The notes under the pieces are model-generated. The model was not told the origin of the DNA. It did no database searches and worked only from the letters and a program-made list of their open reading frames with translations. From a virus: a DNA stretch of 32,593 bases. Of the stretch, positions 1 through 14,025 are shown piece after piece. The stretch covers positions 1 to 32,593 of the IMG/VR virus record IMGVR_UViG_3300042987_001336. One strand, given 5' to 3'. How positions within the stretch are numbered: position 1 is the stretch's first letter; the number at the start of each line of letters is the position of its first letter. The translations under genes and the position numbers were made by a program.

Positions 1-979
1 CGCCCCGTGCCGGATCGACACCGATCACTATCGGCGCCGTTTCGTCCTTGTAGCGCGGTCGTGAGGCTGCGTCGGCTACGTGTGTGGGCGCAATGAACTG
101 ATCGTCGCCGCTTGACGGAAACTCCCCATACACCTCCACCCGCGCTTGGCTGGAGTCCTCGCCGTACTCTTCGATAATCTGCTGGTAGACCTGCTTGTCA
201 GTGTCCTCCACCGTGCGCGCGTCCACCTGCCGGGTCTGCCAGAAGTCGCGCTTGGCGTTGAAACACTCAAAGAAGTACCCCGTATTGCGCCGTGGGTTGC
301 TGAACGCAAACCAATAGCGGTCAAGGATGTTCTCCGTAAAGAAGCCCGCCCCCACTGACCAGATGCCGTCAGGAATACCGCTGGCCTCGTCAAAGATCAG
401 CATCATGCCGTCGTGGTTATGCACACCCGCGTAACTGTCTGGGTTCTCCTCCGACCACAGCTTGCCCTCCGCCGCCCAGTAGCGCGTGCCTTTCTTAAGG
501 TCGCGCTCCACCAAATCACATATCCACTTGGCGGGCTGGAGTTTGGTCGCGCTGATCTCCCACCAGTGCGCGTTGATGATCATCGTAGACCACTTGGTCA
601 GCTCGCCCCATGTCACCGACCGAAGCTGAGCCTCGGAGTTGGCGCTGACGATAACGCTTGACCCAATCCGGGTAGACAGCATCCACAAGATAAGCCATGA
701 GACAAGAGCCGACTTGCCGATACCGCGCCCGGACGCCACCGCCGAACGCAGCGTGTCCATGTCGATCTGGCCTTTGTTCTTCTGAATGTGCGCCTTGAGG
801 TTTCTCAACACCTGGCGCTGCCACATGCGCGGGCCTTTGTACTTCTCCAGCGGTGTGTTCTCCTGCCCCCACGGGAAGGCAAACAACGCAAACGCCTCGG
901 GATCGTCCTTGACCTGCGGCGACCATAGCCGGGTCATCAACAACTGTTCATCATCTGGACTGTAAATGGGCTTCTGCAT
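1..979 (-). CDS. terL: Terminase large subunit, C-terminal part beyond window edge
   Basis: This is the motor and nuclease that packages phage DNA into the prohead. The reading frame is open from an ATG at 979 to the window edge, giving 326 codons that begin MQKPIYSPDD. Residues about 82-90 read ASGRGIGKS, a Walker A ATP-binding loop. Residues about 192-199 read MMLIFDEA, a Walker B strand with the catalytic acid. At the very edge VIGVDPARG (about 318-326) is the first acidic motif of the RNase H-like nuclease domain, so most of the nuclease lies outside the window. It overlaps the end of the upstream gene by 29 bases, typical of paired terminase genes. The ATPase motifs and the order small-then-large make the call firm. 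Confidence 0.95.
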   Translation of the reverse strand, partial: MQKPIYSPDDEQLLMTRLWSPQVKDDPEAFALFAFPWGQENTPLEKYKGPRMWQRQVLRNLKAHIQKNKGQIDMDTLRSAVASGRGIGKSALVSWLILWMLSTRIGSSVIVSANSEAQLRSVTWGELTKWSTMIINAHWWEISATKLQPAKWICDLVERDLKKGTRYWAAEGKLWSEENPDSYAGVHNHDGMMLIFDEASGIPDGIWSVGAGFFTENILDRYWFAFSNPRRNTGYFFECFNAKRDFWQTRQVDARTVEDTDKQVYQQIIEEYGEDSSQARVEVYGEFPSSGDDQFIAPTHVADAASRPRYKDETAPIVIGVDPARG

Positions 980-1415
980 TGGTTGGAATACTGAGTTGGG
1001 TTGGCGGGGCTTCAATCACTTCAGTTACTTGGCCTTCGATGGTGCGCTGTTCCGCCGCGCGCAGGGCGTCGATGACGCTGATGCGCTGATCTACCTCGAC
1101 AGAAATGGACTGCTTGGCTACCCAGCCGTGAGCGTGCTGCAAGATGGCCAGCGCGGCCTTGGCGTCGCCCGCCCGAGCGGCGTCGAGCAAAAGCTGGCTG
1201 CTTTCCATCTCGCTGTCTGCGCGGCCCTTCTGTTCGGCTATTTGGGCTATATGGTCAAACTCTTTCAGTCGCTTGTACTCCACAGGTAGTAAACCTGCTG
1301 CTAATGCTAATGAATCATTCTTTAACCCTAAGTATGCAGCAGCGTATATACGCTCTAACGTCGCCTCGGTGGCGCGCACTTCTCGAACTGTGAGAGGAAG
1401 ACTCTTGAATGTCAT
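951..1415 (-). CDS. terS: Probable terminase small subunit
   Basis: The gene would encode a 154-residue protein starting MTFKSLPLTV. The first half contains a stretch around residues 15-45 that looks like a helix-turn-helix (alternating Ala, Leu and charged residues around YLGLKNDSLALAAGL). The middle is long and helical, compatible with the oligomerising part of small terminases, and the tail is polar. No catalytic motif is present. The call rests mainly on its place directly upstream of, and overlapping, the large terminase. The frame extends upstream to 1541, but the ATG at 1415 is preferred because the extension translates poly-U-rich leader and promoter-like DNA. The family was not identified by a clear motif, so another packaging-associated DNA-binding protein remains possible. 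Confidence 0.65.
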   Translation of the reverse strand: MTFKSLPLTVREVRATEATLERIYAAAYLGLKNDSLALAAGLLPVEYKRLKEFDHIAQIAEQKGRADSEMESSQLLLDAARAGDAKAALAILQHAHGWVAKQSISVEVDQRISVIDALRAAEQRTIEGQVTEVIEAPPTQLSIPTNAEAHLQSR

Positions 1416-1794: not shown

Positions 1795-1818
1795 AAAAAA
1801 AAGTCGCTGGCGGGCGAC
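1795..1818 (-). terminator. Leftward intrinsic terminator in the control region
   Basis: Read leftward, GUCGC, a six-base loop and GCGAC (1818-1803) form a five-pair, mostly G-C stem. Eight uridines follow directly (1802-1795). This has the form of a rho-independent terminator and works only in the leftward direction. No leftward protein gene lies upstream of it. The only transcript it could end is one from the LexA-box promoter about 50 bases upstream. Confidence 0.6.
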
Positions 1819-1854
1819 GATCACAGCGTGGACTCAGCGCGCCACTGTAGCTAC
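1795..1854 (-). ncRNA. Candidate short untranslated RNA between a leftward promoter and terminator
   Basis: A leftward promoter with its -10 box at 1866-1861 predicts a start near 1854. An intrinsic terminator ends near 1795, so the product would be about 60 nucleotides. The RNA could fold into an upstream stem (ACA and GTGG around 1832-1840, with a two-base bulge, pairing with CCACTGT at 1842-1848) followed by the terminator hairpin. No start codon with a ribosome site lies inside. The RNA is inferred from signals alone, and no homologue is recognised. Confidence 0.35.
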
Positions 1855-1871
1855 TGTACGGTTATACAGTA
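1852..1871. promoter_or_regulatory. LexA-type SOS box
   Basis: The 20-base dyad is TACTGTA, then CGGTTA, then TACAGTA. It contains CTGT-N8-ACAG, the LexA-binding pattern of E. coli and many beta- and gammaproteobacteria. It agrees with the E. coli consensus at 16 of 20 positions, with only central bases differing. A further half-site, ACTGTA, lies at 1844-1849. The box covers the -10 region and start of a leftward promoter, where a bound repressor would block transcription. A phage-encoded repressor with the same specificity is an alternative. Confidence 0.65.
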
Positions 1872-1888
1872 TATATTCATTTTTTCAA
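1861..1888 (-). promoter_or_regulatory. Leftward sigma70-like promoter under the LexA-type box
   Basis: On the minus strand TTGAAA (1888-1883) is followed after 16 bases by TATAAC (1866-1861). Each hexamer matches the sigma70 consensus at five of six positions. The surrounding DNA is A/T-rich. The expected start near 1854 lies within the LexA-type dyad. Transcription would meet a terminator about 50 bases later, so the promoter has no evident protein-coding target. Confidence 0.55.
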
Positions 1889-2016: not shown

Positions 2017-2045
2017 TTGACGGATGCAAAAGAATCCCTTACACT
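2017..2045 (+). promoter_or_regulatory. Rightward early promoter P1
   Basis: TTGACG (2017-2022) is separated by exactly 17 bases from TACACT (2040-2045). The start would be near 2052, about 37 bases ahead of the first gene of the small early cluster. The whole 29-base element closely resembles the promoter at 2331-2359: TTGA, ATG, AA, AGAAT and TTACACT are shared in register. Confidence 0.75.
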
Positions 2046-9231: not shown

Positions 9232-9507
9232 CTAACTCCAATCATAAAAGTTTATAACGCGATCTAAACTATTTGCCCACCGATCAAACTCAGTTAACCT
9301 GCAACTGACATCTACCAAGAAATTATCCGCCCACCAGCGGAAACGGTACGCCCGTCCTCGGTAATGAGATACAGATTCCGTCTTGAAAAAATCACGGACA
9401 ACGCTATGCCCTCGCCGCTTTAGAAAAGTTTTGAGTTCGCTAGGACTCATGCCGCACAATTGAGAGCGAGTAGGACGTTTGGCTTTGTACTTCACAGCCG
9501 CACCCAC
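9232..9507 (-). CDS. Unrecognised basic 91-residue protein
   Basis: The protein is strongly basic, with KYKAKRPTRSQL near its start and KTFLKRRGHSVVRDFF following. It is also rich in Trp, Phe and Tyr in the second half (YRFRWWADNF). This would suit nucleic-acid binding, but no motif is recognised. Two starts are possible: GTG at 9507, or GTG at 9495, which overlaps the previous stop as GTGA. Neither has a clear ribosome site, so translation is probably coupled to the winged-helix gene upstream. It overlaps that gene and is followed after two bases by the next. Confidence 0.65.
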   Translation of the reverse strand: MGAAVKYKAKRPTRSQLCGMSPSELKTFLKRRGHSVVRDFFKTESVSHYRGRAYRFRWWADNFLVDVSCRLTEFDRWANSLDRVINFYDWS

Positions 9508-9818
9508 ATCCTAGCCGTGCTACCGGGTATCCGGCGTGATGACACCAGCCCACACCTACGCATCGTTTGCAGGATGCGAGACACCACCGCCGTCGGGATT
9601 TCCGTCGCGTCACTGATCTGACTGGACAGGCACTCGCCGCCCAGTTCTATCATTGCTTGGTTAATATGACGAACACGTTCTGCGTGAATCATTTCCTTCG
9701 TATGTTTGCTTGCCCACTTGTAACCCGGCTCGTCCGGGTCGGCAAAGCTCACTACACGCGGCGCCTGAAATCCGCTCACGATGGGTTCGGCTGGTATTAA
9801 AACTTCCAACAAATTCAT
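9492..9818 (-). CDS. Winged helix-turn-helix protein
   Basis: The C-terminal half of this 108-residue protein fits a winged helix. A helix runs to IELGGE, then LSSQISDATEIPTAVVSRILQ forms the helix-turn-helix (about residues 64-84), then MRRCGLV leads to a wing with SRRIPGSTARMWVRL. The first 45 residues lack clear structure. A DNA-binding regulator, or a replication accessory protein with a wing, is expected. The target is unknown. Its start overlaps the preceding stop as ATGA. It is the only clear helix-turn-helix in the replication operon and therefore a candidate ligand for the repeats at 1552-1993 or the divergent promoters at 11842-11891. Confidence 0.7.
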   Translation of the reverse strand: MNLLEVLIPAEPIVSGFQAPRVVSFADPDEPGYKWASKHTKEMIHAERVRHINQAMIELGGECLSSQISDATEIPTAVVSRILQTMRRCGLVSSRRIPGSTARMWVRL

Positions 9819-12748: not shown

Positions 12749-14025
12749 AACTCAGGCCGTATCAAGAGCGCGGCGCCGACTTTCTGTACGAGCACGACCG
12801 CGCGATGGTGCTGGCGCCCGTAGGGGCGGGCAAGACCGCGCTCACGCTGACCGCCATGCGCGAGATGGTCAACGACGGTCACGTCGGGCGCTGGCTGGTG
12901 CTGGCGCCTAAACGCGTCTGCACTGACGTATGGCCCGTCGAGGTTAAGCTGTGGGCGCCCGACCTTGATCTGAAGGTAGCCGTAGGCACGCCCAGTCAGC
13001 GGGCGGCGGCGATGACGGCACAAGTCGTGGTGATCAACTACGACAACCTGCAATGGCTGGCCCAGCAGCCGCTGGACTTTGACGGCATCGTGTTCGACGA
13101 ATTGACGCGTCTGAAGAACCCCTCCGGCGCGCGGTTCAAGGCGTTGGCCCGTGTGCTGGACTGCCCGATCCGCTGGGGGTTGACCGGCTCGTTCACCAGC
13201 AACGGGCTGGAAGATGTGTTTGGCCAATGCAAGATCATAGACCAGAAATTGCTGGGCCGCAGCAAAGGTGCCTTTCGGCAGCAGTATTTCTTACTGTCTA
13301 CTTACGGCGGCTATGACGAGTGGACGCCGCGCTCCGGCGCGCTGGAGTTGGTCATGGAGCGCATCAAACCGGCGACGTTCGTGCTGGAGCCTGGCGACTA
13401 CAAGGACAAGCTGCCGCCGCTGCACACGGTCGAGGTGCGCGTCGATCTGGACGATAGAGCGCCATACGAAACCATGAAGAAGGACTTTGTGGTGCAGTTT
13501 CCTGACGCGCTGGCAGTGGCCCAGAACGCCGCCGTGGTCACGCAGAAGCTGCAACAGATGTCGTCGGGGTTCGTCTACACGCCCGAGGCGCAGTGGTTCA
13601 GCACGCACAAGTTTGACCGGCTGGAAGAACTGCTCGACGAGAACCAGCACGCCAACACCATCCTTGTGTACAACTACAAGGAAGAACTGACCGAACTCAA
13701 GCGCCGGTTCCGCGTCACCACGCTGGATGACGACCGCGCCATCGAGCGGTGGAACGCCGGACAGGTGCGGCTGCTGGCCGTTCACCCGAAATCCGCAGGC
13801 CACGGGCTAAACTTGCAGCACGGCGGATGCCACATGGTGTTCCTGTCCCTGCCATGGAGTCTGGAACTGTATGAACAGACAGTCGGGCGGTTGCATCGGT
13901 CTGGGCAACGCCGCGACGTGTGGGTCTACCTGTTGATGACTAGCAAGACCGTGGACGAGCGCATCTGGGCGGCGCTCCACGATAAACGCGCCCTGAGTGA
14001 CATAGCAATGGAGGAACTGAAGTGA
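12739..14025 (+). CDS. SNF2-type superfamily 2 helicase
   Basis: The 428-residue protein has both helicase lobes. Lobe one has the Q-like LRPYQERGADFL (about 5-16), Walker A APVGAGKT (about 26-33), FDELTRLKN (about 119-127) and GLTGS as motif III. Lobe two has ILVYNYKEEL, then HPKSAGHGLNLQ as motif V and QTVGRLHRSGQ as motif VI, the last typical of SNF2 proteins. It probably translocates on double-stranded DNA. The GTG start overlaps the methylase-like gene by ten bases. Together with the VRR-NUC gene upstream it resembles paired nuclease-helicase systems used in phage recombination or replication restart. Confidence 0.9.
   Translation: MGLKLRPYQERGADFLYEHDRAMVLAPVGAGKTALTLTAMREMVNDGHVGRWLVLAPKRVCTDVWPVEVKLWAPDLDLKVAVGTPSQRAAAMTAQVVVINYDNLQWLAQQPLDFDGIVFDELTRLKNPSGARFKALARVLDCPIRWGLTGSFTSNGLEDVFGQCKIIDQKLLGRSKGAFRQQYFLLSTYGGYDEWTPRSGALELVMERIKPATFVLEPGDYKDKLPPLHTVEVRVDLDDRAPYETMKKDFVVQFPDALAVAQNAAVVTQKLQQMSSGFVYTPEAQWFSTHKFDRLEELLDENQHANTILVYNYKEELTELKRRFRVTTLDDDRAIERWNAGQVRLLAVHPKSAGHGLNLQHGGCHMVFLSLPWSLELYEQTVGRLHRSGQRRDVWVYLLMTSKTVDERIWAALHDKRALSDIAMEELK

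Follow-up and report, generated by a model that had tools for sequence, protein, structure and literature searches.

A LexA-type dyad in an exchangeable slot of the control hub of a virulent-looking podovirus family

The window, that is the whole stretch of DNA analysed here, is a 32,593-base IMG/VR virus record encoding a family-A DNA polymerase, a primase with RepB_primase and DUF5906 domains, an exonuclease, an SNF2 helicase and podovirus-type head genes. Its nearest named relative is MW202483, an uncultured podovirus in which the structural genes carry a P22-like annotation. Leftward late genes start from a small-terminase-like gene (TerS) and rightward early genes start at 2089; the ~670 non-coding bp between them, hereafter the hub, contain the dyad studied here. 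The label TerS rests on the place of the gene before the terminase-large (TerL) frame and its overlap with that frame, and no Pfam or PHROG match was obtained for it. A search with TerS led to the identification of more than 580 related IMG/VR records. The features considered in the window are the following.

951-1415, minus strand: small-terminase-like gene (TerS), heading the leftward late block and overlapping the terminase-large reading frame
1667-1788, no strand: ~9-bp GGCAAT units in an array towards TerS; relatives have other 9-mer arrays
1776-1919, no strand: inverted-repeat arms TCTAGGCAATGTTGTCATG (1776-1794) and CATGACAATATTACCCAGA (1901-1919), enclosing promoter, dyad and hairpin
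1795-1818, minus strand: terminator-like hairpin GTCGCCCGCCAGCGAC (1818-1803) and eight T (1802-1795); not conserved
1795-1854, minus strand: putative ~60-nt RNA, inferred in the first-pass annotation
1802-1808, minus strand: AGCGACT motif (AGCGAYT in many relatives), counted in the hubs
1852-1871, no strand: LexA-type operator dyad TACTGTA-CGGTTA-TACAGTA, core CTGT-N8-ACAG at 1854-1869; kept upstream of TerS in relatives
1861-1866, minus strand: -10-like hexamer TATAAC within the dyad; register not conserved across relatives
1883-1888, minus strand: -35-like hexamer TTGAAA, kept in relatives L018 and L019; statistically weak
2017-2045, plus strand: promoter-like TTGACG-17-TACACT for the early genes

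The sequence TACTGTACGGTTATACAGTA at 1852-1871 matches 16 of the 20 positions of TACTGTATATATATACAGTA, the E. coli LexA consensus, which may not be that of the host. It has the CTGT-N8-ACAG palindrome, flanking TA and an AT-rich centre of a LexA operator, and it is identical to the core of the E. coli sulA operator except for the central four bases; the sulA operator served as positive control of the LexA-box search and was recovered. CTGT-N8-ACAG is the LexA motif of most betaproteobacteria (PMC6595937). Within one window the 8-base core is by itself weak evidence (two copies versus 0.35 expected) and only the symmetric arms are striking there. The second copy, at 13867-13882, lies within the SNF2 helicase gene and is probably due to chance. 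The box at 1852-1871 is significant because it is conserved in relatives.

We searched for such boxes in the 209 loci whose sequence extends at least 700 bp beyond TerS on its upstream side. Boxes matching at least 14 of 20 positions were found in 65 of the 209 TerS upstream regions versus 1 of 947 other 1-kb segments from the same loci, a count that also includes degenerate copies of a second class, located closer to TerS. With a stricter count, restricted to boxes of at least 15/20 in the AT-rich hub slot, 28 of 228 loci remained, representing 16 distinct sequences. The CTGT-N8-ACAG core was present in 15.6% of hubs versus 0.2% of background segments, an enrichment of about 80-fold. The best box in a relative reaches 19/20, and most fully read LexA-type genomes have a single strong box, located at the hub. 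LexA-type boxes accompany TerS-like proteins 53-97% identical to that of the window. A DNA pattern scan of the whole collection found the element also in more distant members, with TerS proteins 53-67% identical; in every match with a recognised TerS it lay upstream of that gene and on the same strand. Most matches outside the phage family resemble LexA boxes of host-type SOS genes. The LexA-type box announced by the first-pass annotation in a phage control region was thus confirmed. The family can do without this box: most relatives lack it, and the close relatives L278 and L280 have a broken version. Degenerate LexA-like repeats (TTTATACAGTGATGTACATGCATACAGTA) are also seen outside the main slot, about 180-350 bp before TerS, in L236, L221 and L258.

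In most relatives the hub slot, located between inverted ~9-bp repeat arrays and often before AGCGAYT, holds a different dyad. ATTTCA-N5-TGAAAT was found in 24 loci, TGCYTA-TARGCA in 41 and GTAAGGAATTCCTTAC in 9; further types exist, and the typing left 117 loci untyped. We considered that these other dyads might be LexA motifs of other bacterial groups and rejected this, as none of seven other LexA motifs tested was enriched in the hubs. Some of the seven are what we take to be the LexA motifs of such groups. The others are quoted in PMC8565304.

A quick tree of TerS requires 19 changes of the LexA label, at least nine of them forced by well-supported branches, and different dyads are seen in phages with identical TerS. 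In L320 versus L314 a replaced hub block sits between flanks that are 82-90% identical on either side, and core proteins are 94-99% identical across the shared 13.9 kb. Comparison of G024 with G008 gave 94% identity for the primase, 95% for the polymerase and 99% for TerS, yet their dyads differ. These alignments indicate exchange of what the slot holds, against a background of core proteins with 94-97% identity. Since the G024 and G008 core proteins are near-identical and the dyads are not, the binder would not be a core replication or terminase protein, and a core phage protein as dyad-binding factor is in general unlikely. Three dyad types, the LexA type included, occur among relatives as exact reverse complements, so dyad orientation seems to be unimportant, which fits a dimeric repressor and not a fixed -10 element. 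The reverse-complement versions of the LexA type lie in similar flanks, as expected for a symmetric dimer. A natural flip is seen between ATTTCACATTATGAAAT (12 loci) and ATTTCATAATGTGAAAT (10 loci), for example in the pairs L324/L297, L214/L223 and L216/L283.

The inverted-repeat layout enclosing the dyad recurs in relatives with other repeat sequences. In the window ~9-bp units form arrays at 1667-1788, 1901-1919 and 1955-2010; units in relatives include TGTCCACA, TGACCTAA, TAGCCAACA and others, some close to DnaA boxes, and the arrays can swap along with the dyad though core replication proteins stay 94-96% identical. A phage DnaA-like protein was considered as binder of these arrays and rejected, as the Bac_DnaA_C domain was found in MW202483 only and was absent from 24 other records. 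In that phage (L205, 31423-31719) a 98-aa protein has the DnaA C-terminal HTH domain (PF08299) alone. The motif [AG]GCGAYT gave 132 forward matches in the hubs versus 38 on their reverse strand, and AGCGAYT is often preceded by GGGGTA, in which context its spacing from the dyad is about 4 to 19 nt. The longer form GGGGTAnAGCGAYTTAAA lies downstream of the dyad in relatives' hubs (e.g. L210, L214, L297) and is kept across differing dyads and arrays. GC skew gave no clear origin signal. Towards TerS, the window has five copies of a TTAG(T/C)...CTCACTAAC dyad repeat (1547-1659), and a TTAGTGAG..CTCACTAA motif recurs in L020, L024, L032, L061, L189 and L194. Just upstream of TerS, a ~75-bp GC-rich element (1455-1527) made of a G/C run, AGGGCC and then ACAAATTTTTTATTTTT is present in 177 of 228 relatives; it is kept more widely than the dyad and is a candidate packaging site (cos/pac).

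A leftward promoter, TTGAAA-16-TATAAC, had been proposed over the box. The hexamers (1888-1883 and 1866-1861) and their 16-nt spacer are as described, and similar TTGATG/TTGATA counterparts of the -35 occur in L023, L032 and L076. The statistics are only mild: scored against shuffled flanks, the window promoter gave p=0.21, and 30 elements gave a mean p of 0.31 leftward and 0.46 rightward. In addition, the -10 register is not conserved and moves inside the dyad between relatives. The overlap of LexA operator and promoter thus consists of hexamers that are present but weak and of shifting register. With scores only mildly above shuffled flanks, a leftward promoter at the dyad is plausible.

To ask which protein could act at the dyad, we compared 21 genomes and found no gene separating the LexA-type ones from the others. 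The integrase (PF00589) and S24 (PF00717) domains were absent in 23 family records, many of which are fragments, and lysogeny genes as in the temperate switches of the GIL01, 186 or Gifsy type were not found in these 23 records. This negative result makes a prophage switch unlikely, bearing in mind that many records are fragments, and the idea that an RNA from the hub times a switch loses its object, no lytic/lysogenic switch being seen. Searching bacterial genomes with TerS gave no prophage relatives, and with TerL only three MAG contigs. The contigs with TerL relatives are binned with gamma- and betaproteobacteria and one Patescibacteria MAG, such bins being weak host evidence. The family looks virulent and constitutes a widespread freshwater podovirus group.

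The first-pass annotation read the hub as the source of a dedicated SOS-induced RNA of ~60 nt, starting near 1854 and ending at the terminator (1795-1818). Such an RNA would be comparable to lambda OOP, a 77-nt transcript of pO made close to the genes for replication; pO itself contains a LexA-binding sequence. In the window itself promoter, box and terminator are all there: the hairpin with eight U just beyond the promoter was found at 1818-1795, and the intervening stretch has no plausible protein gene, both as originally described. The window has five terminator-like hairpins, however, versus 2.9 expected, and the set does not hold up in relatives. Of 31 LexA-type elements searched, only that of the window has a terminator at the expected place, so that a conserved terminator was rejected; 29 of the 30 others have none, the sole other match (L291) is unrelated and about 100 nt off, and the total is no more than in shuffles (1.4). 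In L018, the closest relative, the U-run is already lost and reads CTGAAAAC. The fold of the window transcript is that of shuffles (z=-0.05), no excess structure emerged when the putative transcript was folded for five phages, a Rfam search of the hub matched no family, and no ORF of at least 50 aa lies on the plus strand across 1795-1854 as an antisense target. Neither the conserved terminated RNA nor the antisense gene of an OOP-type RNA was thus found, and relatives have unrelated dyads in place. A dedicated SOS-controlled small RNA is therefore quite unlikely, and a ~60-nt terminated RNA, if made at all, would be peculiar to the window genome.

Three other explanations were weighed. That the LexA-like sequence arose by chance and has no function is very improbable: even though the core is expected 0.35 times per window, chance is contradicted by the strong positional enrichment in relatives (65/209 versus 1/947; 15.6% versus 0.2%). 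The hub could also be a replication origin in which the dyad is a hairpin or cruciform near AGCGAYT, used by the RepB-type primase, with its sequence mattering little. The opposed 9-bp arrays, the AT-rich dyad, the frequent GGGGTA before AGCGAYT, the RepB_primase domain of the primase and the inverted dyads between relatives, as hairpins would give, agree with such an origin. It is a small set of dyad sequences, however, that recurs over distant phages and contexts, which indicates sequence recognition, and with the variable dyad-to-motif spacing and a GC skew that marks no origin we give this explanation little credence. Better placed, although still improbable in our judgement, is an operator for a phage-encoded repressor or immunity protein of varying specificity, its LexA likeness being convergent or mimicry. 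Operators that swap fast while neighbouring genes stay alike are what immunity groups show, and the window codes for a small winged-helix protein at 9492-9818. Yet at the syntenic position L030 and L175 have no room for this gene, comparison of 21 genomes gave no gene that follows the LexA type, S24 peptidase and integrase were not found in the 23 records, and the match to the LexA consensus reaches 19/20.

We therefore favour, with somewhat better than even confidence, the reading of the dyad at 1852-1871 as a host LexA operator in an exchangeable hub slot, probably repressing leftward hub transcription. Host LexA is the economical reading because the motif fits, is stable over distant phages and has no phage-encoded partner that we could find. 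Intact LexA would keep RNA polymerase off the leftward promoter that the dyad overlaps; cleavage of LexA (during SOS, possibly provoked by infection) or its titration by phage DNA copies would release leftward hub transcription. Derepression might serve late-gene timing or origin activation, or the operator might merely silence a spurious promoter. Relatives fit other dyads there, and the slot would allow repressors to be plugged in that, for the most part, seem not to be phage-encoded. Against host LexA, the operators of phage-encoded immunity repressors typically undergo rapid exchange too, and small DNA-binding proteins lacking annotation could have escaped detection.

Phage 186 tum is a LexA-repressed antirepressor gene of a temperate phage. 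Likewise, in Gifsy phages antirepressor genes have a phage promoter under a host LexA box (PMC7067206). The window resembles these systems in its predicted host LexA box at a putative phage promoter, whereas they drive an antirepressor gene in integrated prophages and here no downstream antirepressor or prophage stage is seen. Host LexA also represses promoter P1 of the tectivirus GIL01 (PMC4551915). GIL01, an extrachromosomal linear replicon, has no integrating prophage stage, as seems to hold for the window phage too, and in it LexA sits on a phage promoter, as we infer here. GIL01 is, however, a Gram-positive phage not related to the window phage; it has several SOS boxes and a helper protein, gp7, whereas the window shows a single canonical CTGT-N8-ACAG box and lacks any known helper. 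In lambda, a LexA-binding sequence lies in the pO/oop promoter (PMC5869508). Common to both are a leftward control-region promoter near replication genes with a LexA-binding sequence in it (both predicted here) and a short downstream transcript ending at a terminator (putative here, in one genome). Unlike OOP, the window element is antisense to no gene and its terminator and RNA are unconserved; the window phage has no cII-like switch, integrase or repressor that we found, and in most relatives other dyads take the place of the LexA site. A direct search of the available literature for podovirus LexA boxes found nothing, which does not by itself prove their absence.

That phages use host LexA is known, and host LexA has already been found to control temperate phages; what is new is the context, a family that looks virulent and has a slot with exchangeable operators. 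We tentatively suggest, as a possibility that we would not yet bet on, that a large virulent phage family keeps one swap-in operator slot for different host repressors, LexA being one, and so ties the timing of leftward transcription to host regulators. If this is true, lytic phages too would read or borrow the SOS repressor, with the operator kept, lost or exchanged. The slot provides natural experiments in the form of near-identical phages differing in the hub cassette, and the other dyad types may expose the sites of further host regulators.
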